From Bacilli bacterium (GTDB taxonomy: Bacteria; Bacillota_I; Bacilli_A; RFN20; CAG-826): a stretch of 64,000 nucleotides of DNA. How positions within the stretch are numbered: position 1 is the stretch's first letter; each line of letters starts with the position of its first letter. Below are positions 158-51,229 of the stretch, one piece after another. Below the pieces are notes generated by a model, which worked only from the letters and a program-made list of their open reading frames with translations, ran no database searches and was not told the origin of the DNA. The DNA is taken from the NCBI GenBank assembly GCA_022641095.1, contig JALCDB010000003.1:124001-188000 (forward strand), given 5' to 3'. Both the position numbers and the translations under genes were made by a program.

Positions 158-163
158 TATGAT
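158..163 (+). promoter_or_regulatory. Candidate -10 element (TATGAT), leaderless
   Basis: TATGAT ends 7 nt before the ATG at 171. Transcription would start at or next to the start codon. No ribosome-binding site lies between. Confidence 0.5.
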
Positions 164-170
164 TACACGT

Positions 171-1547
171 ATGAAAAACGAGAAGGAACTGACGGAGCTT
201 GCCAAACACTCCAAACACAACGAGATCGAAATCATCAAAAGCAAGACCTGCTCTTGCTATTTTTGCCGTCAAAGCTATAGCGCCCGGGACGTGAACGACT
301 GGGTTAACGACAAGGATGGGGTGACCGCCATCTGCCCCATTTGCGGCATGGACGCCGTCATCGGCGACGCTTGCGGCATCCCTTTTGGCAAGGCGGATCT
401 AAAAGAACTGAATCTTGCCTATTATGGCGACGATTACATGGGAAAGCATCCCGCCGCGGCCCTCAAATACGTCGAGCGCTACAAGCGCGGGGCCATCACC
501 CATAAGCGGGTGAACGAGAACCTCTACATCCAATATCTCTCCCTCTTGGCGGGCCGTGGCAACAGCCAAGCCGCCTACGATTTGGGCGAACTTTACGAAA
601 ACGGAAGCGAATTCACGCCCGCCGACCCCAAAGCGGCCTTTTCCTATTTCGCGATGAAATGCCTTTCCAGCGATGGGGGGGCGTTGACCCGCCTTGGGAC
701 GCTTAGCGAGAGCGGGGCGCTCGGCAAAGAGGATCCCAAAGGGGCTTACGAATGCTACGCCAAAGGCATGGCCATGGGTTCCATGGACGCTCTCGTCCAT
801 TTCGCCGACTGCTACATCCGTGGGGTTTTCGTGGAGAAAAACCAGGAATTCGCCTTTGACGTGCTCTCAAGCGTTTGGCCCGACTGCTACGCTCGTTTCG
901 TCGCCAGCGGCGGCAAGGAGATAAACGTTTTTCCGGACGTGGCCTTCCGTTTGGGGGTCTTCTTCCTCTATGGGACGCCTTTTGGCAAGGATTCGCGCGT
1001 GGCCCTTCGTTACTTCCTGTATGCCAAATTCGGTTTTGAACTCATGAAATCGGCGGGTCTAGCCACTGCGGAAAGCGAATCGGCGCTTGGCGAAGTAACG
1101 AAGAAAATCGCCGATTTGGCCAAAAAATTCGGCCTTAAGCGACAGGATCCGGTTTTTGATAACGACACTTTCGACGACACGATCGGGGAAGTCGCTTCCT
1201 CCCCTTCTTTTCTAACCCTTCAGGGTGGGGCCATTTCCGGGGTTGACTTCGACAAAGAGACCCATGAATGCTCATTCGACATCGCCGCCCGCGTCCCCGC
1301 GCTGGTGGTGGATGCCGGCAATTTGTTCTGCGGTTTCGTGCCTGGGTCGATCCATTGGGATTTCGTCGACGTCAGCGACGTTAGGGTCGGCAACGGCGCC
1401 GTTTTCGGCAAAATCGGCGGAAACTCCACCGACGGCTGGGATTTCATAGTGGATGAGGGCGGCAACGAAAGACCCGTTCTTTCGCTGGTTTTCTTTCGTG
1501 GCCCCATTAAACGCAAACAACTCAAGGATGGCGGCGGGGAGGCTTAG
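171..1547 (+). CDS. Zinc-finger and Sel1-repeat protein
   Basis: 458 residues. The N-terminal part holds two cysteine pairs (CYFC near residue 30 and CPIC near residue 55, with TAICPICGMDAVIG between and after), a zinc-ribbon or treble-clef pattern. Residues about 115-300 carry Sel1-type helical repeats (AAYDLGELYENG, ALTRLGTLSESG, ALVHFADCYIRG). The C-terminal 90 residues look like a small beta domain. No signal peptide or membrane helix is seen, so it is probably cytosolic, with a protein-interaction role inferred from the repeats. I chose the ATG at 171 over an in-frame ATG at 6 because the upstream stretch is not protein-like and a -10 element sits 7 nt before 171. Specific function is unknown. 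Confidence 0.8.
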   Translation: MKNEKELTELAKHSKHNEIEIIKSKTCSCYFCRQSYSARDVNDWVNDKDGVTAICPICGMDAVIGDACGIPFGKADLKELNLAYYGDDYMGKHPAAALKYVERYKRGAITHKRVNENLYIQYLSLLAGRGNSQAAYDLGELYENGSEFTPADPKAAFSYFAMKCLSSDGGALTRLGTLSESGALGKEDPKGAYECYAKGMAMGSMDALVHFADCYIRGVFVEKNQEFAFDVLSSVWPDCYARFVASGGKEINVFPDVAFRLGVFFLYGTPFGKDSRVALRYFLYAKFGFELMKSAGLATAESESALGEVTKKIADLAKKFGLKRQDPVFDNDTFDDTIGEVASSPSFLTLQGGAISGVDFDKETHECSFDIAARVPALVVDAGNLFCGFVPGSIHWDFVDVSDVRVGNGAVFGKIGGNSTDGWDFIVDEGGNERPVLSLVFFRGPIKRKQLKDGGGEA

Positions 1548-5023: not shown

Positions 5024-5566
5024 TCACCGCGTATGGGGGCTGCAGAAAAGAATCTGCCGCGAGAAGGCGCCGAACTCAAAGTCGTAGGGGCCCAGGTTCA
5101 GGAACCCTTTCTTTTCGTAGAAGGATATCGCCGCGGCGTTGGAAGGCGTCGCGGAGAAGATCCAGAGGCGATGGGGGTAAAGGCCTTTTAGGTAATCGAC
5201 GAGGTCGCTCGCGACGCCTTTGCGGCGATCCATGGGATCGACCATGAGCCGATGGATAAGAAGCAGATTGTCTTCCTCCTTGGCCGAGCATTTGTCGAGC
5301 AAGGCCAAAAGTTTGCGGCTGTCTTTGCTAAGGGGGAAGAAATCCGCGAGGGGATCGAAGCCGACGGAAACGGAGCCGACGACGCGGCCGCCGTTTTTGG
5401 CGATATAGAGGCAATGGCCGTCGACGTCCTTTTCGAAGTCGGTTTCGTCGGGATAGCCATCTTCCCACATGTCGTTGCCCTCCTCCGCGAGCGAGGCGCG
5501 GACGCGCCGGAAAAGCTTCATGACGGCGGGAAGGTCCTTGTTATTGGCATGGGTGAGGCGGAGCAT
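5024..5566 (-). CDS. GNAT-family N-acetyltransferase
   Basis: 180 residues. It shows the GNAT layout: N-terminal beta-alpha (MLRLTHANNKDLPAVMKLFR), central strands with GRVVGSVSVGF, the RLMVDPMDRRKGVASDLVDYL segment matching the acetyl-CoA loop (R/Q-x-x-G-x-G/A), and the C-terminal ATPSNAAAISFYEKKGF motif typical of the fold. Acceptor substrate unknown. An in-frame ATG 18 nt further upstream exists, but TATAGT lies between the two and ends 6 nt before this ATG, so the shorter start is preferred and the mRNA should be leaderless. Confidence 0.88.
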   Translation of the reverse strand: MLRLTHANNKDLPAVMKLFRRVRASLAEEGNDMWEDGYPDETDFEKDVDGHCLYIAKNGGRVVGSVSVGFDPLADFFPLSKDSRKLLALLDKCSAKEEDNLLLIHRLMVDPMDRRKGVASDLVDYLKGLYPHRLWIFSATPSNAAAISFYEKKGFLNLGPYDFEFGAFSRQILFCSPHTR

Positions 5567-5572
5567 GCGTTT

Positions 5573-5578
5573 ACTATA
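5573..5578 (-). promoter_or_regulatory. -10 element TATAGT, leaderless, for the acetyltransferase
   Basis: TATAGT on the minus strand with exactly 6 nt to the ATG at 5566. It lies only 22 bp from the divergent -10 element of the Vsr-like gene. Confidence 0.6.
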
Positions 5579-6676: not shown

Positions 6677-6682
6677 GATAAT
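6677..6682 (+). promoter_or_regulatory. -10 element GATAAT, leaderless GTG start
   Basis: GATAAT with exactly 6 nt to the GTG at 6689. No ribosome-binding site is present. Confidence 0.5.
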
Positions 6683-6688
6683 ATCCTT

Positions 6689-8209
6689 GTGAAAAAGTGT
6701 TTCCTCGCCGCCGCCCTTGCCGCCCTCGCCCTTCTTTTGGGCGGCTGTTCCTATGCTAGCGAGCCCTATGCGCCGACCGCGAACTTCTACACCGTCCGTT
6801 ACTTCGACGACGACGATCCGGCCAGGGAATGCGGTTACGCCTATTTCCAAGATGGGCAAAGCGCCATCTTCCACGACGAGGCTTCCTATGGCTCGGCTTA
6901 CGATTATGAGTCGCTTCGTACAGCCGCCGTCGGCCATTATTACGTTTTCGATGGCTGGTATTTCAAAAACACCGACGGCACGTGGGGCGATAAAGCCAAT
7001 CTCTATAACATCAGCGCCGAATACGTCGCCGCCCACGGAGTGGACCTCTCGGCTGGGTCTTCCGCTTCGGCGGCGGGGCTTCTTCGGGCCGACGTTTCGA
7101 GCGCGGAAGGCGTCTCCTCCAGCGAAGGGATTTCCTCCGCGAGCGTAGGGGCTTCTTCGGGCCATTACGCGATTCTCGACAAAGAGCTTCACGTTTACGC
7201 CCATTTCGCCGAAAGGCTTTTCGCCCTTGCCTTCGAATACATGGACGGGGTCGATTACGCTCGCGACGCCAATAACGAAATGATCAGCCAAACGGTGCGT
7301 TTTGGCGACGAAGTGGGGGCCGCTTGCCCCGACTACTCGATTCTCACCGCCTCCGAATTCGAGACCAAAACGGGCCATGGGCTCAGCGGCCATCCGGATT
7401 ACGGATACGTCTCCGATTTCAAGGGCTGGACGATCCAAAACGATTTCGAGGATCTTGACGAAGACGGAAAAGCCGACGAGGAGTACGCCGCCGCGGTCTT
7501 CACGATCCTCGCCCCGGGCGTCAAGTTCACCGGCGACGCGGACCATTCCGCCGTCTCTTTGCCGACGATTTCCGAGCATATGGCGGGCGACCTTTTCCTC
7601 GATGGGCATATCGATGCGGCTACGGGGAAACGGGTCAACGAACTCTATTGCCTCGTCAAAGGAGCCAACCGCTCGGGCGTCGCGATAGAGCGTTGGGTCG
7701 ACATCGGCGCCATGAGCGAAAGGAAAGATCCGGTTTTCGTGTGGGTCGCCGCTTACGAGACCATGAATGACGATTTCTCCCTTAAGTTTTTCAGCGAGGA
7801 GCTCGCCAAAGGCGTCACGGAGGAAGCCGCCGCCGCGGAGACGGCGAAATACCGCGGCGACGCTTATACGATCACTGAGAAGTTCCGCAAGAAGATTATC
7901 ATCGCCGTTTCCGGTTTCGGAGGCGACGTCGTCTCGAGCGCTTCTTGCTGCGATGAGCTCGATTCCGTGACGGGCGATCCGCTTTCGCCGGTCGCCATCG
8001 TGGGTTTTCCCGCCGATCTTTATCCCGATACGGCCACGATAGAAGACATCGATATGGGGGGATACTATTACGCCGACGGGACGGTTCTCAAGCATTATCG
8101 CGGGAGCCCCATCGTCATCAAAAGGACTTTGGACGCCGGCAGCAACAAGGTGACCTTCCTCGTCGACTCGCTCAACGGTCCCGGGTATCTATATTCGACC
8201 ATTGGCTGA
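6689..8209 (+). CDS. Surface lipoprotein with Listeria-Bacteroides-type repeat domain
   Basis: 506 residues from a GTG start. It opens with a lipoprotein signal peptide (VKKCFLAAALAALALLLGGC, lipobox LGGC). Residues about 28-175 resemble the InlB B-repeat/Flg_new beta fold (YTVRYF ... YYVFDGWYFKNTDGTWG ... LHVYAHF), interrupted by a Ser/Ala/Gly-rich linker. A second degenerate copy follows (FALAFEYMDG ... DFKGWTIQN) with a DEDGKADEEY acidic loop. The C-terminal part is unrecognised. It is likely anchored on the outer face of the membrane. The GTG is chosen because it begins the signal peptide exactly and follows the -10 element by 6 nt. Confidence 0.8.
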   Translation: MKKCFLAAALAALALLLGGCSYASEPYAPTANFYTVRYFDDDDPARECGYAYFQDGQSAIFHDEASYGSAYDYESLRTAAVGHYYVFDGWYFKNTDGTWGDKANLYNISAEYVAAHGVDLSAGSSASAAGLLRADVSSAEGVSSSEGISSASVGASSGHYAILDKELHVYAHFAERLFALAFEYMDGVDYARDANNEMISQTVRFGDEVGAACPDYSILTASEFETKTGHGLSGHPDYGYVSDFKGWTIQNDFEDLDEDGKADEEYAAAVFTILAPGVKFTGDADHSAVSLPTISEHMAGDLFLDGHIDAATGKRVNELYCLVKGANRSGVAIERWVDIGAMSERKDPVFVWVAAYETMNDDFSLKFFSEELAKGVTEEAAAAETAKYRGDAYTITEKFRKKIIIAVSGFGGDVVSSASCCDELDSVTGDPLSPVAIVGFPADLYPDTATIEDIDMGGYYYADGTVLKHYRGSPIVIKRTLDAGSNKVTFLVDSLNGPGYLYSTIG

Positions 8210-8324: not shown

Positions 8325-8330
8325 TAGAAT
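8325..8330 (+). promoter_or_regulatory. -10 element TAGAAT, leaderless
   Basis: TAGAAT ends 6 nt before the ATG at 8337; an overlapping TATGAT at 8320-8325 is an alternative. No Shine-Dalgarno sequence is present. The 127-nt gap upstream (8210-8336) otherwise holds only a T-rich stretch near 8241, without a clean hairpin. Confidence 0.5.
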
Positions 8331-8336
8331 CCCTAT

Positions 8337-9149
8337 ATGGACTTCTTCTTCCGCTACAGTTTCCTTTTTTTCTTAGGTGGGATGGCCGGTTGGGTCATAG
8401 AGCTTTTTTTCCGACGCTTCGTCAGTCAACGCAAATGGGTCAATCCCGGTTTCCTCACCGGGCCGCTCCTTCCCCTCTATGGGTTTGGGCTCGCGGCCCT
8501 TTACCTTTTCTCGAACATGATCCCGTGGGAGAGTTTCATCCCCTCAGGGGTTGGGGCCACGGCGACGGAGATCCTCTGCATCGGAATCGCGATGACCCTC
8601 ATCGAATACCTCGCCGGATTGATCTTCATCAAGGGCTTGAAGGTTAAACTATGGGATTACAGCGACCGTTGGGGCAACGTTCAGGGCATCATTTGCCCGC
8701 TTTTCAGCTTGATTTGGCTTTCCGTGGGCGCTTTGTACGTTTTGACCCTCAATCCCGCGTTCGTCGCGATGACGGATTTCGTGATGGATAACCTCATCGC
8801 CTTCGCCACCGCGGAAGGGGTGTGCTACGGGGTTCTCTTCGTCGACCTTGGCTACAACTTGGGCGTTTACGCCAAGATCCGTCAAGCCGTCGCCAATCGG
8901 AAACTGGTCGTCGATTGGGACAAAATCAAGGTTTCCATCCAAGACCATTTCAAGAGGATCAGAAGGCATGCCAACTGGATTTTCCCATTCTCCCAAAGAA
9001 TGGAGGATTTCAACCAATTGATGCGCGAATACCTCGCCGTTTTGAAGCTCGACAATGAGACGCGCGTCGCCGATAAGAGACGCAAGAAGGATCTTCGAGC
9101 CGAAAAGAAGGACGAAAAGGGAGGGCCTGAGGGGCCAAAAGGCAAATGA
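8337..9149 (+). CDS. CmpB/PF06541-like membrane protein (putative ABC-transporter type IV)
   Basis: 270 residues. The N-terminal 160 residues carry four to five membrane helices with the family pattern GGMAGWVIELFFRR, WVNPGFLTGPLLPLYGFG and KLWDYSDRWGNVQGIICPLFS. The C-terminal 100 residues are cytoplasmic, basic and end in a Lys/Glu/Gly-rich tail. The molecular role of this family is not established. It overlaps the next gene by 4 nt (ATGA), so the two are probably one operon. Confidence 0.8.
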   Translation: MDFFFRYSFLFFLGGMAGWVIELFFRRFVSQRKWVNPGFLTGPLLPLYGFGLAALYLFSNMIPWESFIPSGVGATATEILCIGIAMTLIEYLAGLIFIKGLKVKLWDYSDRWGNVQGIICPLFSLIWLSVGALYVLTLNPAFVAMTDFVMDNLIAFATAEGVCYGVLFVDLGYNLGVYAKIRQAVANRKLVVDWDKIKVSIQDHFKRIRRHANWIFPFSQRMEDFNQLMREYLAVLKLDNETRVADKRRKKDLRAEKKDEKGGPEGPKGK

Positions 9150-14065: not shown

Positions 14066-14081
14066 AAAAAATAATCGATAA

Positions 14082-17000
14082 ATGGACATCGACCAAATCG
14101 TGCAAATCGAATCGCAGGTTCTCCTTTGGGCATTCGTGGCCATCGTCGTCTTTTTGGCGCTTGGCTTTCTGCGCGGCCTTTTGCGCGGATGGCGTTATGG
14201 GACGTATCGCCTCATCGCTTTCACGATTCTCATCGTCATCGCCTTCGCCACTTTGCCGGCCCAAGCGAACGCCGTCGGGGGGCTGAACATCGCCCAGTGG
14301 GTCGGACCGTCGTTGTCGACGAACGTCAACGGAACGCCGATCGATGTCACGGTCACCACCGTTTTTGGCACGATAAACAGTTTCGTGTCGGAAGTCTGCA
14401 AAGCCTTCAACGTCGGTTCGCCGGATTCGATCGCGGCTTTGGCGACGGCTCTCGCCACGAGCGTCATCAAATTGGCCATGATGGTGGTGGACGCCATCAT
14501 CGTCATCATCCTCGGCTCGTTTCTCGTGCTTCTTCTATGGCACCTTGCCTTCAAGCACATCATTCCGAAAAAACAGCGGAAGGCCTCTTATAAAAAGGGG
14601 AAGATCGCCAGCGCTTTCGAGGAAGTCGCCATCGTCGGCGTTCTCATGGCGATGTTCCTCACCCCCTTCACTTCCTTAATCAATTCGGTCGCCCACGGTT
14701 TCGACGGCGCCAGCGGGGACGATGAAGCTTCCGTGGTGGTGGATGGGCCCGCCTATTCGACCGTTAAAGCGGCCCTTGACACCTACGACGATTCCCTATT
14801 ATCAAAGGTTTTTTTCGGTTCTTACGCCCGCAACGACGAGAACGAATCGTTCGATGAGCAACTAGTCAATTTTTTCACGAGCGCCCCGGTGGCGAATTCG
14901 GCCGCGAACGCGAAGATATCCATCGGCGATTTGCTGGGCGACGTCACGAAAGTGGCCTCCGCCATCCTTAAGGGCGGGCTTTTCGATGAAGAAAACATGA
15001 ATGAGGTGGGTTTTCTCACTTTCGCCGCCAGCCGTTATCTGCCTGAACTTATCTATGCTTTGGCTGACAGCGATTTCTTCACGGCCCTTCTCCCGATCGG
15101 CGTGGAAATCGTCCTTTCGCTCCCAAGCGTTGAGGCTTATGTCGCGACCAACGAGGGCATTGACACCTCCCACGTCAACTGGGCGGACGGAATTGGTAAC
15201 CTCGCTCAATTGGTCAAGGACATCCAAGACGCCGGCATCATCGATGTTTTCTTCGATCCTGAGAACGAGGAGAAGCCCGTGGGGCTTAGCGGCGAAGGCA
15301 TCGCCGCCCTTTTCGACGAGACGCATGTCGCCAAGTTCAACAAAGTGCTTGACGATTTGGACTCCAACTCCTGGACCTTCCTCAATAAGCTTCTCCAGTC
15401 GGCCCTTTACGTCACGGCCTGCAAGTCCGCGCAGTCGCTCGCCGACGCCGGGCCCCGAAGCGCGACCTCGATCGACCTTTCCGACTTCTTGCCTTCCGTC
15501 GACACTTCCGATTCCGATGGCGACGGCAATCCGGGATGGGACAAGGACGGCGACGGCCTTCCGGACGCGTTGCCGGCGAGTTACTCCTCCATCAGATTCG
15601 GCGAGGAGATAAAGTCAGTTTACAATTCCATCGCCGATCTTAATGGCAACCTCGCCGATGAGGGCGTGGCCGATTTCATTCCGCAGATCGCGGCTCGCAT
15701 CGCCGCCAACACGATAACGACCGACAACTACGTCTCCGATCTGCTCTTCGACCATCCGCGGGTTCTTGAAAGCGCGATCGTGGGCGACGTTGACCCCACG
15801 ACGGGAGAGCTTACGAACATCGACCCGGTAACCGGCAAGAGCACGGGCACGACGTGCCTGCTCGACAATACGTTTCTCGTTAACGCGATGCCGCGCCTTC
15901 TAAGGATTCTCAGCGACGCCGTTTCCTCGACCATGGATGTCACGGTCGATGGTTTGGATGAGGCGATCGCTTCCCTTGACACGACTTTGGAATTCAAGGG
16001 GGAATTCAACGCGATGTTCAAAATCGTGAATGCCCTCGTCGCCCCGGGCGAAGACGGGGAAGGCAACCCCGTCGACGGGGGCATCGGCAAGACTTTCATC
16101 AAGCATTATGGCGATTTGCCGGGCATCGACTACGACCCCGACGGCAAGTTCAACGGCATTGACGACGGGCTGTTGGTGGATCTTGAGAACGCCATGAAGG
16201 CCATCGACGATTCGGTCGTCCTCCCAAAAATCATGAAAGGCGTGTTCTCCTCTTTGCTAGGGAAGACCTTTTCTTCCGCCATGGGCGAAGGGTGGGTCGA
16301 TCCAACCTTCCCCGAGGAAGGTTTAGGCCAATCCTTGGCCGATTTGCTGAGGACGTTCGGCGATTGCGGCGACCTCATCCGCTTCGTGACGAACCTTTCG
16401 AGCTCAGGATCCATGACAGGCAAGAACCTCGAGACCCTTTTGGCGCCATTGCGCGACCCGAGCTCCGGCTATGCCAATCAGTTTAAGGAGCTCCTTAGGT
16501 TCATGGCCACCTCGCCGATCCTTAATCCGGACGTGAGTCAAGAAGGCGGCGGAGTTGTCAAGAACACGAACTTCCTCCTCGTCGTCAACAAGGCCCTTGG
16601 GGCGATGGGCGACGATTACCTTATCACGCAGGAATATCTGTCTTCCCTCGATTTCAACGCGGCCGATGAGGCCGACGCCTTCGTCGATTGCGTCGTTTCG
16701 CTAGTCAGCAGCGGCCTTGTTTCCACCTTGTCGGATTACTCTGGATCCAGCCTCGACATCGCCGCCCTTCGAGGCGTCGATTTCGAGGAGCTTTTCTCCC
16801 ACGTCGACGATTCCTTCATCATGAGGAAGGTCTTCTCCCAAGTCCTCGACAAGACCGTTTTGCCGGTTGTCACGAGCCTTTCGACGGCGGACCTTTCCGA
16901 CGTCACGTTCGCCAACGTGACGAGCTGGGCCACCGAAGGGAGGGCCCTTGACGCGCTCGTTCGTTTTGCGAGCGAGATCGGCGATTTCTCCAATATCCAA

Positions 17001-21286: not shown

Positions 21287-21292
21287 TATAAT
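21287..21292 (+). promoter_or_regulatory. Consensus -10 TATAAT, leaderless, for glpK
   Basis: Perfect TATAAT followed by exactly 6 nt (TGACGT) and the glpK ATG at 21299. There is no space for a ribosome-binding site. No good -35 is present. Confidence 0.75.
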
Positions 21293-21298
21293 TGACGT

Positions 21299-22783
21299 AT
21301 GAAAAAGTACATCTTGGCCATTGACCAAGGCACGACGTCCACTCGTGCCATTTTGATTTCGCGGCAAGGGGAGGAAGCCTTCAAGGCGCAGCGTTCCATC
21401 GATTGCTTTTATCCTAAACCCGGCTGGGTCGAGCAGGACCCCGATAAGATATGGGTGAGCGTCGTGGACGTCGTGAACGAAATCCTCATTGTGTCCGGGG
21501 CCAAAATGAGCGACATCGCCGCGATCGGGATCACCAATCAGCGCGAGACCTCCATCGTTTGGGACAAGAAGACCGGTAAGGCCATATATCGGGCCATCGT
21601 TTGGCAGAGCAAAGAGACCAAAAGCCTTTGCGACAAACGGGAGCGTTACGCCGCCTTCATCGCTAAAAAGACGGGCCTGCGGATGAATCCGTATTTCAGC
21701 GCCTCCAAGGTCCGTTTTATCCTCAATCACGTTCGCGGGGCCCAAAAACGGGCTGATAGAGGGGAGCTTGTTTTTGGCACGGTCGATAGCTGGCTCATCT
21801 ACAAAATGACCCAAGGGGCCCATCACTACACCGACGTGAGCAACGCCTCCCGCACGATGCTGTTCAACATCTTCGACATGAAATGGGATCCGGAACTTTG
21901 CAAGATTTGGAACGTTCCGATGTCGATGCTGCCGGAGGTCCGCGATAACGCGAGCGACTATGGCGAGGCTTCCTTCTTCAACGGGCACGTCCATATCTAT
22001 GGGGTCGCCGGCGACCAGCAAGCCGCCCTCTTTGGGCAATGCTGCTATAAGGAAGGCGGCAGCAAGAACACCTACGGCACCGGCTGTTTCATGCTCATGA
22101 ACACCGGCAAGAAGCCGATCATCAGCAAACATGGTCTTTTGACGACCGTGGCGTGGCGCCTTGACGGCGAAGTGACTTATGCCCTTGAAGGCTCCGTCTT
22201 CATCGGCGGGGCGGTGGTGCAGTGGCTTCGCGACCAAATGGCTTGGATCAAGCACAGCGCCGACAGCGAAGGCTACGCCGAGCGCGCCCCCGACACCGCC
22301 GGGGTCTACGTCGTGCCGGCTTTCGTCGGGCTTGGTACCCCTTATTGGGACGACGAGGCGCGCGGGGCCGTATTCGGTCTGACCCGCGGGGCCGACCGCC
22401 ACAACATCACGAGAGCGGCTCTTTATAGCATCGCCTACCAATCTAAGGACGTGATCGACACCATGAAGAGAGAGGCCCACCTTGACCTCAAGGTTCTCAA
22501 GGTCGACGGCGGGGCTTCGGCCAATGGCCTCCTTATGCAGTTTCAAAGCAATATCCTCCAGTGCGAGGTGCGCATCCCGAAATGCATCGAGACGACCGCG
22601 CTCGGGGCGGGGTATTTCGCTGGCCTCGGCTGCGGGTTCTGGAAGGATTGCCATGAGATCGAGATCAATCACGCTTTTGCGAAAATGTACTATCCCTCCA
22701 TGGAGGAAGCGGAAGCCCGCCGCCTGTATCGGGGTTGGCGGATGGCCGTCAAAGCCACCCGGGTCTATAAGCCAAGGAACTGA
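21299..22783 (+). CDS. glpK: Glycerol kinase
   Basis: 494 residues, the normal length. It phosphorylates glycerol to glycerol-3-phosphate with ATP, feeding glycolysis and lipid synthesis. FGGY-kinase motifs: AIDQGTTSTRAIL at the N-terminus, ITNQRETSIVWDKKTG, the substrate-region QWLRDQ, and LKVDGGASANGLLMQ in the ATPase fold. No glpF or glpD lies beside it. The start follows a perfect -10 element by 6 nt, so the mRNA is predicted to be leaderless. Confidence 0.97.
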   Translation: MKKYILAIDQGTTSTRAILISRQGEEAFKAQRSIDCFYPKPGWVEQDPDKIWVSVVDVVNEILIVSGAKMSDIAAIGITNQRETSIVWDKKTGKAIYRAIVWQSKETKSLCDKRERYAAFIAKKTGLRMNPYFSASKVRFILNHVRGAQKRADRGELVFGTVDSWLIYKMTQGAHHYTDVSNASRTMLFNIFDMKWDPELCKIWNVPMSMLPEVRDNASDYGEASFFNGHVHIYGVAGDQQAALFGQCCYKEGGSKNTYGTGCFMLMNTGKKPIISKHGLLTTVAWRLDGEVTYALEGSVFIGGAVVQWLRDQMAWIKHSADSEGYAERAPDTAGVYVVPAFVGLGTPYWDDEARGAVFGLTRGADRHNITRAALYSIAYQSKDVIDTMKREAHLDLKVLKVDGGASANGLLMQFQSNILQCEVRIPKCIETTALGAGYFAGLGCGFWKDCHEIEINHAFAKMYYPSMEEAEARRLYRGWRMAVKATRVYKPRN

Positions 22784-28100: not shown

Positions 28101-28240
28101 ACAAGAGCCGTTCCATCGACGATCCGGCTTACGCGAGGCAGGTGGAGGCCTACGCTTCCTACGTCCGCAAAGTCACGGGCCTTCCCGTGGAGAAATACCT
28201 CCTTTCTTTGGGACAGGCTCGCCTCCGCGCGCTACAATGA
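25163..28240 (+). CDS. addA: AddA helicase-nuclease subunit
   Basis: 1025 residues, somewhat shorter than Bacillus AddA. UvrD-type motor: SQLAAIEAGEGNFLVAAGAGSGKT (Walker A lysine 31), VLTFTDKAAAEMK, MIDEYQDTSD (motif II, near 370), the GDIKQSIYLFRNA segment, SIHSSKGLEYKIV, and YYVALTRAQEKL. The C-terminus is a PD-(D/E)xK nuclease (GSIDLLIL ... VIVDYKSRS). It unwinds and trims DNA ends with AddB. A GGAGGAG site precedes the ATG, which overlaps the addB stop. Its last codons overlap the -10 element of the following gene. Confidence 0.96.
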   Translation: MSAPKWTASQLAAIEAGEGNFLVAAGAGSGKTAVLTERVFRLVKDHEEDPGQGAGLDSLLVLTFTDKAAAEMKDKIRKKILSDPTLRHLSGEVEGASIMTFDAFAHQLVSRYHYDIGVNEKPDIVDDSVFAVEKNRLLGELLDEYYERGDNPISGFAKLACVKNDGHVREAVLSLDSLGDRQSDKMGFYAHYDSRYFSDSYIDEAIAEFEKLLRDGLTALSEAGKAHYVNENQSDKETSFIDGILQNKGFDAFAKAFREAAPFPRKIPTKKSDSIDNDKATHTAIAKRYKEFLGYANAAGSRQEIKDRYLLTKPYVDAFVEVASELERRLSSRKKEAGMYGFADIATMARKIVSLPGPLSELRRKYRYVMIDEYQDTSDLQESFIDALSGGTNVFAVGDIKQSIYLFRNANPTLFSSKRERFERHDGGTLITLAENFRSRKEVLEDINAIFSPIMRKELGGIDYRNRQSLVYGNKAYGISGDEDHHLEIYSYEKPKEMPGAEAEARLIAEDILEKVRGGYEVLRTPRGKPACLGPATWGDFAILDITKGNFDVYRKVFLEAGIPLEADSTDDASSLDITMVFRRLVSLLAHLDEPGREASNEHGYLSVMRSFLYGRKDPDLYDDVTTKKYLKSPLFETIRAKKKESGNASLSELTEWIIDEFGFVDKLRTLTDVKDDYAELQGFAKLASSLDRFGLSLRDFDAYFDRLKDYEVKMPLESAVSSPSAVSLMSIHSSKGLEYKIVYVPGEGKRFNFGDFKGAYLSSEKRGLVIPLLDGGEPQNIFHVLLREEEIAAHTSEELRLYYVALTRAQEKLILLAPADRKEPIKGLESPSCLLDFLSLSRFGKRKEKEVVPLVKIAGQETSRNVSFPFRRVEEEPVASAHIRPSKSSLEPANEAALAYGTRLHSLMELTDFRSKDVSWIKDETERSLIEKVLGLPIFADLSHAEVYHEYAYYDPEENVRGSIDLLILYPNKAVIVDYKSRSIDDPAYARQVEAYASYVRKVTGLPVEKYLLSLGQARLRALQ
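28233..28238 (+). promoter_or_regulatory. -10 element TACAAT embedded in the addA stop region, leaderless
   Basis: TACAAT spans the last codon and the first base of the stop codon of addA, with exactly 6 nt to the ATG at 28245. CGCGC directly precedes it. Confidence 0.6.
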
Positions 28241-28244
28241 AGCC

Positions 28245-29390
28245 ATGGCAAACGAAACGATTTTCACGAAAGGGCAGTTTCTTGACGTTCTCAAGGGGCT
28301 TCGGGTCCCCGAGAACCTTTCGCGCGATTTCCTTTACGATGCGTATGTCGCCGCGATGGAGGGCTCGCAGGAACTAAAGAAAGCCTACGGGGCCCTCGCG
28401 GCGATGCCGATCAACTCGACGCAACTCGTTCTCTATCTCGTCAATGAGCATTCCTTTTACCTCATGATGCACCCCGACAAAAAAGAGGCCGACATCGTCA
28501 AGGACGACAAATACGTCCAACTGACCATTTCGGTGGCGCTCGACAAGTATTTCACCAACGAGCATTTGGCCTACAAGAACGGCCGTTTCGCCTCCCGTTT
28601 CCTTCCTGAGATCTCGACGATATCCATTTACCTCAATTTCATTCAAGGAATGCTGTCCCGTTACAAACGGGGCGACCCCAAGGAGACGCTGGTGGTGGAT
28701 ATCATCAGCAAAGCCTTCTCGATGTCCGAATGCATGGTGGACCTTCTTACCTCGGGTTTTGAGACGGAGGCCTTCTCCACCTGGCGGACCCTTCACGAGA
28801 ACGAATGCATCTTGGCGGTCATCGTCAAATACGGCAAGCCTGTCATCGACGAATACCTGAAGCACCTTACCTACGCCTTGGCTTTCCGCGGCGGCTTGCC
28901 GAGCAAAGAGGAAACCGACGCGGTCTTCATCCAAATCAAGGGGGAGATGCGTTCGCTCGGCCTCAAGAGCAAGGACATGAAGCGTTTCATCGAGTACGGT
29001 TGGCTCATCGGGGCCAAGGATTACGCCTCGACCGAGGGCTTCAAATTCAATTTCCGCGACGGCGTCGAACGCATGGCGGGGCTTTCGAATTACTCGAAAG
29101 TCTATGAGATGTCGAGCGAAATCGCCCACAGTTCCGCCTTGCTCATCTATTCCCGCAAGAACTATTTCTACCTCGTCAGCATGATCAATCTCTACGAATC
29201 CTTCTTCCGCCTCGAGAAGATCTTCAGCTCGATTTACCTGTCGACCGTTCCTGAGGCTGAGCAAAAACAATACCTCGCGATGCGGCAGCTTTATTTCGGC
29301 GAACTCATGGCGGTCTACGCTTACGAGAAAAAGCGCTTGGCTAACCTCACTTCCGCCTCCAAAAAGAAAATCGAGGCCGCGAAAAGCTAA
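28245..29390 (+). CDS. DUF5677-like helical protein
   Basis: 381 residues, entirely soluble and helical. The middle (about 160-205) reads SMSECMVDLLTSGFETEAFSTWRTLHENE, resembling the conserved arginine-glutamate helix of DUF5677 proteins, and the region YSKVYEMSSEIAHSS fits the family's second motif. Members often appear near defence or surface genes, but their function is unsettled. Here it follows addAB. The ATG is fixed by the leaderless -10 element 6 nt upstream. A weak 6-bp hairpin (29419-29433) follows the stop. Confidence 0.6.
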   Translation: MANETIFTKGQFLDVLKGLRVPENLSRDFLYDAYVAAMEGSQELKKAYGALAAMPINSTQLVLYLVNEHSFYLMMHPDKKEADIVKDDKYVQLTISVALDKYFTNEHLAYKNGRFASRFLPEISTISIYLNFIQGMLSRYKRGDPKETLVVDIISKAFSMSECMVDLLTSGFETEAFSTWRTLHENECILAVIVKYGKPVIDEYLKHLTYALAFRGGLPSKEETDAVFIQIKGEMRSLGLKSKDMKRFIEYGWLIGAKDYASTEGFKFNFRDGVERMAGLSNYSKVYEMSSEIAHSSALLIYSRKNYFYLVSMINLYESFFRLEKIFSSIYLSTVPEAEQKQYLAMRQLYFGELMAVYAYEKKRLANLTSASKKKIEAAKS

Positions 29391-41509: not shown

Positions 41510-42331
41510 TCAATAGTAGGAAGCGACGAGCGAGGCGGCGGAAGCCGCTTCGCTTTTTATGTCGCGAACGGTTTGGCCCAGACGAATCCTAGGGGCGTAG
41601 CTTTCAAGCGAAAAACCCGCCAAAGCGGCCGTTTTTTGCTCATCGCTCATCTCGGCGAAATCGAGGATGGCGAAGGGGGTTTCCTTTTTTTGGCCCCGGG
41701 AGCGGATTTCCGCGAAGTAAAAGGCGAAGGCGTCGTCTTCGGCGTCGTCATATAGGTAAAGCGGGCAGGAGTTCCTCGCGGCGAAGGAGGCGGCCTTCTC
41801 GTATGTTCGGAAGTGGGTGAGGCCGTTGAGGTTGGAAACTCGCCCCAAGTACGAGGAAAAAGAAGTCCCGCTGTCGGCGTAGGCGTTAAAGGACAGGATT
41901 TCGCAGGCGTTCCCCTGAAGGCGATAAAAGCGGGGGTAATTGTTCTGAAAGCCCGTCGTTCCCCCTTCGTCGCTGGGATATGTCGCTTGCAGAAGGCCGA
42001 CGTCGGCCCAATAGGCCGTTTCGTCGAACTCCGTTCCGCTGGAGCGGTAAAGCAGCGAGACGCGGAGATTGGTTTGCGCCAAGCCGGCGGCGATGGCGCT
42101 TTCGTAGCGCGAACAGGCGGAACACGTCGAGGAAGCGTGAAAGAAATAGACCGTTTCCCCGGCTTGGGCTCTGGCGATCAGGGAGGAGGCCCTTTCCTCG
42201 ACCATCGCTTCGCGATATGTCGAGGCCGTTTCCGCGATTTCCCCGTTCGCGTCGCAGTAGGGCGTGCCGTTAGAGCAGCCGCTCAGGCAAAGAAAGGAAA
42301 TCGCCCCAAGGGCGCATAGGCTCCGTTTCAT
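41510..42331 (-). CDS. Thioredoxin-like lipoprotein with CSAC motif
   Basis: 273 residues. Signal peptide MKRSLCALGAISFLCLSGC ends in a lipobox (Cys19). A thioredoxin-like segment follows: GETVYFFHASSTCSACSRYE with Cys70 and Cys73 forming CxxC. The rest is poorly recognisable, with a possible second thioredoxin-like half (CPLYLYDDAEDDAFAFYFAEI). An extracytoplasmic thiol role is inferred. The shorter ATG at 42331 is chosen because it begins the signal peptide and TACACT ends 6 nt before it. Confidence 0.78.
   Translation of the reverse strand: MKRSLCALGAISFLCLSGCSNGTPYCDANGEIAETASTYREAMVEERASSLIARAQAGETVYFFHASSTCSACSRYESAIAAGLAQTNLRVSLLYRSSGTEFDETAYWADVGLLQATYPSDEGGTTGFQNNYPRFYRLQGNACEILSFNAYADSGTSFSSYLGRVSNLNGLTHFRTYEKAASFAARNSCPLYLYDDAEDDAFAFYFAEIRSRGQKKETPFAILDFAEMSDEQKTAALAGFSLESYAPRIRLGQTVRDIKSEAASAASLVASYY
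41533..41557 (+). terminator. Possible plus-strand terminator inside the convergent lipoprotein gene
   Basis: GCGGC-GGAA-GCCGC followed by TTCGCTTTTT lies 25 nt beyond the ATP-grasp stop, within the antisense 3' end of the lipoprotein gene. Confidence 0.5.
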
Positions 42332-42337
42332 GGCTCT

Positions 42338-42343
42338 AGTGTA
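42338..42343 (-). promoter_or_regulatory. -10 element TACACT, leaderless, for the CSAC lipoprotein
   Basis: TACACT on the minus strand with exactly 6 nt to the ATG at 42331. A CGCGCGCG run lies about 10 nt upstream of it. Confidence 0.6.
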
Positions 42344-45552: not shown

Positions 45553-46979
45553 CGGGCGAGTTCCGCTTTCTTGGCTTGTCGAAGAAGGCTTTTGGCTAAA
45601 GGCGAGACCTCTTTCAGGCAAATCGTTCGGAACGCTTTCACGATCGCTTGTCCGGGCGCGCGCCCTTTTCGGACGTCGCCGCGCTTGGCGATCATCACTT
45701 CGCCCGATTCAAGCCCCGAATTCAGAAGGCAGATTTCCGCGGCCAAACGGATCTCATCTTCGCTGGGGTCGTCCTTTTTGATCATGACGTGCGAACCGGT
45801 CGTTCCTTCGACGTGGAGCCAAGCGTGCCCCTTGCTCGTGTCGAGAAGGAAAGTCAGACAGTCGTTTTCCTTGGCCGATTTCCCAAAGAGGATCTTGGTC
45901 CCCTTGTAGTCGACGACGCGAGGGGTGATTTCGCGGGGGAGGCGGAAGGAAGCCCTCTCGCCGCCTTTTCTCCTCCCGATTCTGCGGGTGGGTTCGAGCC
46001 CCCACGAGGCGGCGAGCCCCTCGAGCCCCTCCTCGTCGGCCCTTTCTAGGAGGGCGAGGTCGTTACTCGTCTCCGCCAGTTCGGTTTCCGCTTTCCGAAG
46101 GTTGCTTGCGCCCATGGCGACGGTGGCTTTGGCTTTTTTCGCCCTTTTATGGAAAAGCTGGGCGTTTTGCGACAAGTTGCGCCTCGGATCGAGGGGTATT
46201 TCCTTTCCGTCGACGGATAAGGAGGCGGCATTTTGGGGCAAGTCGCCCATGTTCATGAAAATGTAATCGCCGTAGGCCCCGTCCCCTAAGTGCGTTTTGG
46301 CGTTGGCGAGGTCGCCCTCGATGGCTCGGATTTTCCGCTCAAGAAGCTTTTTTTGACGCTTAAGGGCCTCGAAAAGATAGCCAAAACGGTCTTTTTTCCG
46401 CCGTGCGGCGAGGTCGCTTTCCTTCTTGAGGCAATCTTCCTCATAGGAACTTTCGTCGAATCCGCCTCTTTCCTCTTTGGCGAATGGCTTTTTTCGTGGG
46501 CTTTGGTAGAGCGTTCCCCGCAGGAGAGGCCGCTCATCCTCAAGGCTGCCCTGACGGAAGGCTCCCAGTATTTTTCCATCCGCGTCGGTGAGAATCAGAT
46601 TGGCGTGGTGGGGTATGAGCTCGAAATAGAGGTTTCTCTTTTCCTCTTTATAGACGGCGTTGACGACGGAAAAGGAAAGGCGAACCACCCGATCGTCGTT
46701 TATTGTCCCAGCATCGGCGAGGCAGGCGTTCGTGAGTTCTTTCCGGAGAAGATCGGCGAACTTGCTTTCCAAAGCGGGAGCCTCGTCGCCATCCGGGGCG
46801 AGGTAAATCCGCGGATCCTCGTCAGAAAGGACGATGGCGAGCCGCTTTGGGTCTTTGCCCGAAAGAATCGCGAAAAAAACCGATTCGCTATACGGAACGA
46901 CGCGGAAAAGACGACGGCCCTTGACCTTCGGTTCCACCGTCTTGACGTGTTCTGTCAGTTCTTTCGCGCTTAATGGCAT
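45549..46979 (-). CDS. rqcH: RqcH/NFACT ribosome quality-control protein
   Basis: 476 residues, shorter than the roughly 570 of Bacillus RqcH. NFACT-N contains the Asp96-Arg97 pair (NDDRVVRL), which corresponds to the DR motif needed for alanine tailing. A coiled coil spans about 195-330. The NFACT-R domain reads ILFGKSAKENDCLTF ... HAWLHVEGTTGSHVMIKKDDPS. It recruits tRNA-Ala to stalled 50S subunits and adds alanine tails to nascent chains. The shortening seems to lie in the middle domains. The start is leaderless (TATACT, 6 nt). Confidence 0.92.
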   Translation of the reverse strand: MPLSAKELTEHVKTVEPKVKGRRLFRVVPYSESVFFAILSGKDPKRLAIVLSDEDPRIYLAPDGDEAPALESKFADLLRKELTNACLADAGTINDDRVVRLSFSVVNAVYKEEKRNLYFELIPHHANLILTDADGKILGAFRQGSLEDERPLLRGTLYQSPRKKPFAKEERGGFDESSYEEDCLKKESDLAARRKKDRFGYLFEALKRQKKLLERKIRAIEGDLANAKTHLGDGAYGDYIFMNMGDLPQNAASLSVDGKEIPLDPRRNLSQNAQLFHKRAKKAKATVAMGASNLRKAETELAETSNDLALLERADEEGLEGLAASWGLEPTRRIGRRKGGERASFRLPREITPRVVDYKGTKILFGKSAKENDCLTFLLDTSKGHAWLHVEGTTGSHVMIKKDDPSEDEIRLAAEICLLNSGLESGEVMIAKRGDVRKGRAPGQAIVKAFRTICLKEVSPLAKSLLRQAKKAELAR

Positions 46980-46985
46980 GGAAAT

Positions 46986-46991
46986 AGTATA
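46986..46991 (-). promoter_or_regulatory. -10 element TATACT, leaderless, for rqcH
   Basis: TATACT on the minus strand with exactly 6 nt to the ATG at 46979; no Shine-Dalgarno sequence. Confidence 0.65.
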
Positions 46992-48425: not shown

Positions 48426-49019
48426 ATGGCAAAAGGGCTTTTGATCATCATATCGGGACCGAGTGGAGTCGGAAAAGGCACCATTCGGCAAGCGGTCATG
48501 AAAGACCCCTCTTTGAACTTATGGTACAGCGTCTCGCTTACCACTCGCGAGCAACGGCCGGGCGAGGTCGATGGCCGGGAGTATTTTTTCGTAAGCGAAA
48601 AGGAATTCGCCGACAACCTTAAGCGCGGCAACCTTCTTGAGCACGCTTGTTTCGTCGGGCATCATTACGGCACCCCGCTCGACAAGGCGGAGGAAAAGCG
48701 CCTCGAGGGCAGGAACGTCATTCTCGAGATCGAAGTCAACGGGACCCTTCAGGTCCTCGATCGGCTGAAGGATCAGGACGTTGTCTCCATTTTCCTCATG
48801 CCTCCGAGCTTTCAGGATCTTGAGGCCCGCATCCGCGGACGCTGCACGGAAGGCGAAAAGTGCATCGAGGAACGGCTTAAGAAAGCCAAGAAGGAAATGG
48901 GCATGAGCGCCCATTACAAATACGTGGTGACCAATGATAGCGTGGAGCGGGCCGCCAGCGAGATCCAAGGCATCATCCGCAAGGAAATCGAACTCGCCCG
49001 TTCGTCTATGACGAAGTAA
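48426..49019 (+). CDS. gmk: Guanylate kinase
   Basis: 197 residues. P-loop SGPSGVGKGT (10-19), the GMP-binding SVSLTTREQRPGEVDGREYFFV, and the lid region ARIRGRCTEGEKCIEERLKKA. It converts GMP and ATP to GDP and ADP. In many Bacillota rpoZ follows; here a priA promoter follows immediately. Confidence 0.97.
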   Translation: MAKGLLIIISGPSGVGKGTIRQAVMKDPSLNLWYSVSLTTREQRPGEVDGREYFFVSEKEFADNLKRGNLLEHACFVGHHYGTPLDKAEEKRLEGRNVILEIEVNGTLQVLDRLKDQDVVSIFLMPPSFQDLEARIRGRCTEGEKCIEERLKKAKKEMGMSAHYKYVVTNDSVERAASEIQGIIRKEIELARSSMTK

Positions 49020-49021
49020 GT

Positions 49022-49027
49022 TATAAT
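49022..49027 (+). promoter_or_regulatory. -10 element TATAAT, leaderless GTG start of priA
   Basis: Perfect TATAAT beginning 3 nt after the gmk stop, with exactly 6 nt (TCCTTT) to the GTG at 49034. Confidence 0.7.
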
Positions 49028-49033
49028 TCCTTT

Positions 49034-51229
49034 GTGCTTATCCTCGATGTGCTCACTCAGTACGGAGCTCGGGCCTTGGACCGGAGTTTTTCCTATCTTT
49101 ATGAGGGGCCCAAGCGCGTCGAACCGCGCTTTCGCGTCCTCATCGATTTCAACGGCCGCCCCATCATGGGTTTCGTCACCGGCATCGCCAAAAGCGATCT
49201 CACGTCGGCGGAAATTGAGGAAAAAAACGGCTATCCCATCAAAAAAATAATCGACGTGATTGACGAGGAACCGCTCCTAACGGACGCCTTGATGGATTTG
49301 GCCAAGCAGGTGAGCGATTACTACCTGTCGCCTCTTATCACCGTTTTGCAGGCGATGTTGCCCCAGTCGCTCTCGCCGAAGCTCTCTTCCCTCCACGGGC
49401 CCAAGATCGCCTATGATACCATGGTCGATTTGGTCTCGGCCTCCGAGAGTGGGCTCACTCCCAAGCAAACGGAGATGCTGCGCCTTGTCGCCGCCAACCA
49501 CCCGATTCTCAGGAAAGAGGCCGGTTCGCCGGCGGTTTTAGGCAAACTCGTCGAATCCGGGCGCGTTCGTCTCTTCCGTCAGGAAAGGCGTCGTTACAAG
49601 ATTCCGCCCGAGGAACGCGAGGAGCCGCACGAAATGACGATCGAGCAGCGGCAAGCCTATGAGGCGATCCTTTCTTCGGAGAAGGAGGTGGTGCTTCTCG
49701 AAGGCGTCACCGGAAGCGGCAAAACCGAAGTCTATCTGCGCCTCAGCGAAAAGGTCCTTCGGGAAGGGAAAAGCGTTTTGATGCTGGTCCCCGAGATAAA
49801 CCTAACGCCGGCCATGGTCGAGTATTTCTCGCGCCGTTTTGGCAATAAAGTGGCGATTCTCCATAGCGAGCTCACCCCGGGGGAACGCTACGACGAATAC
49901 CGTCGCATCGCCAAAGGCGAGGCCCCCATCGTCGTCGGCGCCCGCAGCGCCGTCTTCGCCCCTTTGCCGAACATCGGCCTCATCGTCCTCGACGAGGAGC
50001 ACGTCGATAGCTACAAACAGGATAACGCTCCCTATTATCATGCCCGGGAAGTCGCTATCATGCGGGGACGCCAAGAAAAAGCCAAGATCGTTTTAGGCAG
50101 CGCTACCCCTTCCCTCGAGACCAAAGCCCGCGCCATGCGGGGCGTTTATGGCTATGCTGAGATGCGGCATCGGATCCATGATCAGATCATGCCCACAACG
50201 ACAATCGTCGATCTCACGGATCGCCGCAATTTCACGAAGGACAGCGAGAAAATATCCGGCCCGCTCCTCATCAAAATCAAGGAGAAGCTCGACAAAAAGG
50301 AGCAAATAATCCTCCTTATCAACAGGAGAGGCTATTGGACCAACATCATCTGCCCCCATTGCGGGCATCTTTTCCTATGCCCGAGTTGCGGCGGGAACCT
50401 TACGTATCACCAAAGCGACAATATGCTCAAGTGCCATCATTGCGGTTACGTCGCCCCGTTCCCCAACCGTTGCCCCGAATGCGGGGCCAGCAACCTTATG
50501 CGGACGGGATACGGGACCGAAAGGGTCGAGAAGGAGCTGAACGACCTTTTCCCCGATGCGAAGGTCGCGCGGCTCGACAGCGACGTTGGCAAGGTTAGCA
50601 GGAACGTTGAGAGGATCCTTCGCGAATTCCGCGATGGGAAGTACGATATTTTGGTCGGAACCCAAATGATCGCCAAAGGCCATGACTTCCCTAACGTCAC
50701 CCTTTCGGGCGTCGTTTTGGCGGACATCGGCTTGGCCCTTCCAACGTATCGGGCCGCCGAAAGGACGTTCGAGCTTATAGCCCAAGCCGCCGGGCGAAGC
50801 GGTCGCTCGAGCAAGCCGGGCGAAGCCATCATCCAAAGCTATAATCCGAGCCATTACGCGATCGTTTACGGGGCCAAGCAAGACTACGAATCCTTTTTCG
50901 CCCGCGAGATGCAGGAGCGTCGCGCCCAGCAGTACCCGCCCTACGTTTACCTCTTTTTGCTCGTCTTCTCTTCCCTTTCCGAGGAGAAGGCGGTGGCGAG
51001 TTCCGGCGATTTCAAGCGGGCCCTCCTTAGCGAAAGCCTGGCGACCGTTTCCGTCGTCGGCCCTTTGCCGCCTTTCTACCTCATGAACAAGGGCAAGTAT
51101 CGGAGGATGCTCCTCATCAAAAGCAAGAAGCCGGATCTTCTGCGGCCGTATTTGAAGCGCCTTGTCTCCCGCTATGGCGGGAAAGGCGGCGTCGATATCG
51201 CAATAGATGTGGACCCGTTGGATTATTAA
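49034..51229 (+). CDS. priA: Primosomal replication-restart helicase PriA
   Basis: 731 residues from a GTG start, the normal length. N-terminal DNA-binding domain (VLTQYGARALDRSFSY), Walker A GVTGSGKTE near residue 225, DEEHVDSYKQ (motif II), eight zinc-binding cysteines at about 438-485 (CPHC, CPSC, CHHC, CPEC) and the C-terminal helicase lobe with QAAGRSGRSSKPG. It reloads the replisome at stalled forks. The GTG is supported by the leaderless -10 element and by the family N-terminus. Confidence 0.96.
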   Translation: MLILDVLTQYGARALDRSFSYLYEGPKRVEPRFRVLIDFNGRPIMGFVTGIAKSDLTSAEIEEKNGYPIKKIIDVIDEEPLLTDALMDLAKQVSDYYLSPLITVLQAMLPQSLSPKLSSLHGPKIAYDTMVDLVSASESGLTPKQTEMLRLVAANHPILRKEAGSPAVLGKLVESGRVRLFRQERRRYKIPPEEREEPHEMTIEQRQAYEAILSSEKEVVLLEGVTGSGKTEVYLRLSEKVLREGKSVLMLVPEINLTPAMVEYFSRRFGNKVAILHSELTPGERYDEYRRIAKGEAPIVVGARSAVFAPLPNIGLIVLDEEHVDSYKQDNAPYYHAREVAIMRGRQEKAKIVLGSATPSLETKARAMRGVYGYAEMRHRIHDQIMPTTTIVDLTDRRNFTKDSEKISGPLLIKIKEKLDKKEQIILLINRRGYWTNIICPHCGHLFLCPSCGGNLTYHQSDNMLKCHHCGYVAPFPNRCPECGASNLMRTGYGTERVEKELNDLFPDAKVARLDSDVGKVSRNVERILREFRDGKYDILVGTQMIAKGHDFPNVTLSGVVLADIGLALPTYRAAERTFELIAQAAGRSGRSSKPGEAIIQSYNPSHYAIVYGAKQDYESFFAREMQERRAQQYPPYVYLFLLVFSSLSEEKAVASSGDFKRALLSESLATVSVVGPLPPFYLMNKGKYRRMLLIKSKKPDLLRPYLKRLVSRYGGKGGVDIAIDVDPLDY

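Follow-up and report, generated by a model that had tools for sequence, protein, structure and literature searches.

Introduction

Leaderless initiation is a long-known way of starting translation, and the signature considered in this work has already been described in Firmicutes (Zheng 2011, PMC3160421). According to the accessible text of that study, TA-led genes were found in 56 of 209 Firmicutes genomes, with a mean of 4.2% (range 2.4–16.6), and the leaderless signal was concentrated in Lactobacillales and Mycoplasma. The statement of the initial annotation of the DNA studied here, that extensive leaderless use is less well known in Bacillota, should therefore be corrected. The TA-led genes of PMC3160421 carry a TANNNT whose first T lies about 12 bp before the start codon, as do most of the genes discussed below; the motif takes the form TAtaaT in medium-GC groups, and TG precedes the box in several low-GC genomes. 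Unlike the Firmicutes of that study, the bacterium described here belongs to another family of Bacilli, with leaderless genes estimated at 7% of genes in its own genome and 13% in a congener with 61% GC. The main text of PMC3160421 contains no words beginning with Erysipelo-, Tenericutes- or Mollicutes-.

Most Mollicutes are devoid of ribosomal protein S1, which was lost seven times independently, and about 16–18% of their transcripts are leaderless or leaderless-like; in M. pneumoniae, a Shine-Dalgarno (SD) sequence precedes only 8.1% of genes (PMC4014445, PMC10568206, in their accessible parts). The family considered here resembles most Mollicutes in combining a leaderless class of genes with the lack of any S1 protein above the cut-off of model NF005208. 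Unlike Mollicutes, it has genomes of 0.4–2.1 Mb, and its sampled members span 26–61% GC and show enrichment of SD words in each case.

In Deinococcus-Thermus, a -10 box adjoins the open reading frame, as in the genes under study, and leaderless expression has been shown there experimentally, while here it is predicted from sequence (PMC12340547). A properly placed -10 suffices in that group and a -35 element strengthens it, according to the same source; unlike the situation described here, about 30% of open reading frames are concerned, and the phylum is a distant one. The available text of PMC12340547 also refers to a scan of species across the bacterial domain (Fig S7), which may already have included relatives of the present lineage.

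What is new is the lineage, the spread of the signature within its family (the 6-nt spacing is favoured in 88 of 96 genomes) and the lack of an above-cut-off S1 in all 96. Among the literature matches listed, no paper dealt with leaderless genes in this lineage; the lineage name used was a guess, and the lack of a match says little about whether such work exists. For Bacillota, both gene-finding programs and promoter models rely on SD starts; a -10 model would improve the placement of some 7–13% of starts in the better cases of this group. Furthermore, leadered and leaderless orthologs occur together in the family against an apparently S1-less background, which is useful for studying the effects of S1 loss on initiation.

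Genome, samples and gene sets

The window, i.e., the whole stretch of 64,000 nucleotides that was analysed (contig C3:124001-188000), comes from a genome of 1.59 Mb in 15 contigs, which is 88.8% complete. The host belongs to an uncultured group of Bacilli and is a relative of gut species. In a search of named genomes, the nearest PriA relatives were found in records called Bacilli, Bacillales or Erysipelotrichaceae bacteria, and the isolate names of some of them mention horse faeces or rumen. A sample of 464 kb was composed of the window and 20 stretches of 20 kb from the same genome; the GC content was 0.558 in the window and 0.515 in the sample. Gene starts in the sample were predicted with a simple codon-usage gene caller, giving 333 genes with 70 nt of upstream sequence, of which the 328 with longer flanks were used for dinucleotide shuffles. 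For the ortholog survey, 81 loci were fetched from 23 distinct genomes, and 55 of them were used. The survey of spread used samples of 18 genomes, and its P values are uncorrected.

Promoter-like boxes before genes of the window

Eight -10-like hexamers had been reported in the window, and all eight were found in place, each ending exactly 6 nt before a start codon. Their description as TANNAT-like holds strictly for four (glpK, the CmpB-like gene, the DUF5677 gene and priA), while the looser TANNNT covers seven, and the remaining one is GATAAT. In glpK (21287..21301, plus strand), TATAAT at 21287-21292 and a 6-nt spacer precede ATG at 21299-21301, and the GlpK protein passes its NCBIfam cut-off. 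The same hexamer stands before priA (49022..49036, plus strand; TATAAT 49022-49027, 6 nt, GTG 49034), the product of which also passes the NCBIfam cut-off for PriA. The ABC_trans_CmpB-like gene (8325..8339, plus strand; Pfam PF06541) has TAGAAT at 8325-8330, 6 nt before ATG 8337, and the DUF5677 gene (28233..28247, plus strand; Pfam PF18928) has TACAAT at 28233-28238, 6 nt before ATG 28245.

Three boxes on the minus strand correspond to TANNNT but not to strict TANNAT. A GNAT acetyltransferase gene (5564..5578; Pfam Acetyltransf_1) carries TATAGT at 5573-5578, a 6-nt spacer and ATG at 5564-5566; this start (5566) is an internal in-frame one, 18 nt inside the longest open reading frame. The rqcH-like gene (46977..46991) has TATACT at 46986-46991, 6 nt before ATG 46979; its product matches Pfam NFACT_N and scores below the cut-offs both for NFACT-R domains and for the RqcH models in NCBIfam. 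The gene of a 273-aa protein (42329..42343), earlier labelled a CSAC lipoprotein, shows TACACT at 42338-42343, 6 nt before ATG 42331. The GATAAT box (6677-6682) precedes, by 6 nt, the GTG at 6689-6691 of another gene earlier labelled as coding for a lipoprotein (6677..6691, plus strand). Neither of these two "lipoprotein" genes, starting at 6689 and 42331, has a Pfam or NCBIfam match.

Two near-cases, both on the plus strand, also agree with their earlier description: a Sel1-repeat protein gene (158..173; Pfam Sel1) with TATGAT 7 nt before ATG 171, and the gene of a 1628-aa protein without a Pfam match (14070..14084), a weaker candidate with AATAAT 6 nt before ATG 14082. Some of the window cases follow closely behind an upstream gene, with gaps of 14 nt for priA and 4 nt for the DUF5677 gene. 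The -10 box of priA is located inside the 14-nt gap after the guanylate kinase gene (window 49019-49034), and, since priA has its own box there, this looks like an operon-internal leaderless promoter.

The spacing peak and chance

In the 464-kb sample, TANNNT formed a sharp peak at 6 nt that extends as a shoulder to 7 nt and drops to low counts on either side (5 and 8 nt): at distances from 3 to 10 nt before the 333 starts, the counts were 3, 4, 1, 22, 12, 3, 6 and 5, against a background of 5.2 per position at 10–45 nt. For TATAAT, there were 11 at 6 nt vs 0.6 per position. Dinucleotide shuffles of the 328 genes gave 4.1 ± 2.05 for TANNNT at 6 nt (highest 10; 22 observed), 1.24 for TANNAT (19 observed) and 0.10 for TATAAT (11 observed). 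The window alone behaved similarly: of its 54 called starts, 6 had TANNNT at 6 nt vs 0.57 ± 0.73 in 200 shuffles (highest 3). Enrichment at 6 nt across the genome, which the initial annotation had proposed to look for, is present: TATAATN6ATG occurs 18 times in the whole genome, compared with 4 occurrences of the reversed pattern and 6 with a spacer of 15 nt (N15).

The hexamer itself is specific. TATAAT was the commonest of all hexamers at 6 nt in the sample, ahead of SD words. Of 15 TATAATN6ATG strings, 10 were at called starts; strings with other spacers numbered 2 for 5 nt (none at called starts), 7 for 7 nt (2 at called starts) and 1 for 8 nt (none). Internal in-frame ATGs (2168) showed no clear peak, with 18 boxes at 6 nt vs a mean of 13.6, and no peak was found in two stretches of E. 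coli K-12 with 79 genes, where 1 and 1 were counted at 6 and 7 nt vs a mean of 1.3. Chance or AT-richness as the cause was rejected on the basis of the shuffles, the internal ATGs, the E. coli control and the permutations of TATAAT discussed below. Nevertheless, some TANNNT sites at 6/7 nt must be due to chance, about 10 being expected among 34, and the window sites 18979 and 32053 are perhaps of this kind. The mean base composition upstream of the 333 genes showed the purine bias of SD sequences and no visible -10 profile, which is to be expected if the leaderless class is small.

Features of the box genes and the second mode of initiation

Of the 34 genes that carry TANNNT at 6/7 nt, none has an SD word, compared with 132 of 294 others; this deficit is partly mechanical because TANNNT at -12 to -7 fills much of the SD window. 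An upstream TG, characteristic of an extended -10, was over-represented (7 of 34 vs 1.5 expected). A strong -35 element was also sought, and its signal proved weak, the mean best match in the 34 genes being 3.06 of 6 vs 2.75 ± 0.14. These genes begin with ATG in 32 cases, GTG in 2 and TTG in none, compared with TTG in 34 of 299 other genes. The box at 6 nt was somewhat more frequent in first-like genes (18 of 213) than in later-like ones (4 of 105), a modest difference.

The 16S rRNA retains its GGATCACCTCCTTTCT end including the anti-SD, and SD words show enrichment around starts, being present there in 0.40 of genes vs 0.14 in a control window. Initiation through SD is therefore available, and the two modes coexist, as had been proposed for this DNA. 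Upstream SD sites can be seen for the thioredoxin gene and for those earlier labelled atpE and atpA; Pfam supports the thioredoxin gene and also the DegV gene of the window.

Orthologs

A -10 at 6/7 nt was found in 13 of 21 priA orthologs (0–6 at other paired distances), 10 of 15 rqcH orthologs (0–5) and 5 of 19 glpK orthologs (0–2). In many of these sequences the flanks have diverged and the box and its spacing have been kept; the rows are partly dependent, containing near-identical upstream pairs such as L142/L143 and L130/L133. An SD sequence was found instead in 4 priA, 1 rqcH and 8 glpK orthologs, for example in the g4 genomes, in priA of the same-genus genome G047 (L136) and in glpK of the same-genus genome G083 (L176). 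Neither a -10 box nor an SD was present in 4 priA and 4 glpK orthologs. This division of orthologs between the box and the SD sequence suggests that genes switch modes.

In genomes G105 and G106 (L142 and L143, with records named Solobacterium sp.), TAAAAT stands 6 nt before the ATG of priA. In spite of this box, the overall peak in the 100 kb sampled from G106 was not significant. An in-frame TAA in glpK of G035 and G003 (L183, L185), considered as a possible codon reassignment, turned out to be an ordinary gene end.

Leaderless reading and its alternatives

RNA polymerase with a sigma factor of the sigma-A type starts transcription about 7 nt beyond the -10. With the box 6 nt before the start codon, the start codon probably forms the very 5' end of the message, and the best explanation of the reported genes is that they are, very probably, leaderless. 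The share of such genes in this genome is modest, about 7%. From the sequence, we infer both the transcription start at the start codon and the route of the ribosome on such messages, as follows. The vegetative sigma factor, presumably of sigma-A type, would recognise the -10 box, partly aided by the upstream TG and with weak help at most from a -35. Transcription would start about 7 nt past the box, on the first base of the start codon, producing an mRNA without a 5' leader and without an SD site. The 5'-terminal AUG, occasionally GUG, would then probably be bound by 70S ribosomes, a route taken from the accessible part of PMC9031893.

Of the other readings, the one that survives best is that the messages are near-leaderless, the polymerase starting slightly ahead of the codon and leaving a leader of 1–3 nt. 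Spacings from 6 to 9 nt occur in the same gene among orthologs (4 of the 15 rqcH sequences are classed as 8/9), and the 7-nt shoulder of the sample amounts to 12 vs about 5; the main peak, however, lies at 6 nt, as expected if +1 is the A of ATG. We consider this reading possible, although rather unlikely; if true, such a leader would alter the translation route little. A similar arrangement was noticed in the window before an isochorismatase-domain gene (window 31501), where TAAAAT lies 9 nt before ATG, near-leaderless and resembling the 8/9-nt rqcH orthologs.

It may also be supposed that the promoters are real and the mRNAs leadered, with SD-bearing in-frame starts slightly downstream being used. 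The starts are indeed predictions, and one of the 34 box genes has such a start within 90 nt downstream; these starts are, however, rarer rather than commoner in box genes, being present in 39 of 299 others, and most alignments of glpK and priA orthologs start from residue 1 to 3 of the query. Misplacement of this kind was rejected for most sites on the basis of these counts, and the reading as a whole is very improbable. The last alternative, that AT-rich unstructured sequence aids ribosomes on leadered mRNAs without SD and that the hexamers are a by-product, agrees with the lack of SD words in the 34 box genes but is strongly disfavoured and extremely improbable, as TATAAT alone of the 20 permutations of A3T3 occurs at 6 nt (11 to 0, the other 19 being absent there in the 464-kb sample) and never at 5 or 8 nt.

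Ribosomal protein S1 and spread in the family

The leaderless signature is shared by a part of the relatives. The excess at 6+7 nt was 7.3% of genes in the genome of the window (11% of first-like genes) and 13.1% (21% of first-like genes) in the 61% GC congener G047, where 9 of 82 genes have the box at 6 nt vs 0.6. It reached 7.2% in G024, 7.4% in G040, 7.3% in G044 and 6.3% in G094. By uncorrected P values, it was borderline in G102, G017 and G081 and insignificant in the same-genus G083 and in G027, G079, G011 and G106; there was none in the samples of the same-genus G068 and of G065, G035 (32 genes only) and Orenia. High GC was considered as a driver of leaderless use and rejected, the samples of G065 (51%), G068 (47%) and G035 (47%, from the 32 genes) showing none. 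There is no clean relation with GC, since G047 fits it but G044, with 36% GC, still shows 7%.

Over the 96 genomes of the family, TATAATN6ATG was counted 3307 times vs 2084 for the N15 spacing, with 1533 and 1543 for the reversed controls. N6 exceeded N15 in the 88 genomes mentioned above and in 31 of 35 genera, and the ratio was highest in the genus of the window (88 to 17).

For ribosomal protein S1, model NF005208 alone was applied: no genome of the 96 in the family exceeds its 368-bit cut-off, compared with 8 of 14 controls. Weaker matches were present in 95 of the 96, the best of them with 106 bits, and, among the matches listed, most of those below the cut-off span about one S1 domain. 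In the genome of the window, which is 88.8% complete as assembled, the matches (C2:133910-134197 and C3:8220-8465) belong to PNPase and to a 116-aa S1-domain protein. The best match of the family is a 380-aa multi-S1-domain protein of G094 (L263:1207-2349), which lies below all S1 cut-offs.

We can only infer a causal link between S1 loss and leaderless use. In our opinion, the chances are about even for the following reading: S1 has disappeared throughout this family of uncultured Bacilli, SD and anti-SD have been kept, and leaderless initiation serves as a regular mode beside them, priA, rqcH and glpK having switched modes among close relatives; if true, the trade between leaderless and SD modes could be traced in individual genes.

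In a class-wide count over 218 genomes, which include 23 of this family (6 of them belonging to the genus of the window), the family's ratio of N6 to reversed patterns was 2.36, the second among 22 families. Made without a second control spacing, this measure does not tell leaderless genes apart from promoters that lie near genes. Other families of the class gave 2.40 (f14), 2.08 (f12), 2.06 (f20) and 2.04 (f19). In three genomes of family f19 (G199, G230 and G242), TATAATN6ATG exceeded the reversed pattern more than 5-fold.
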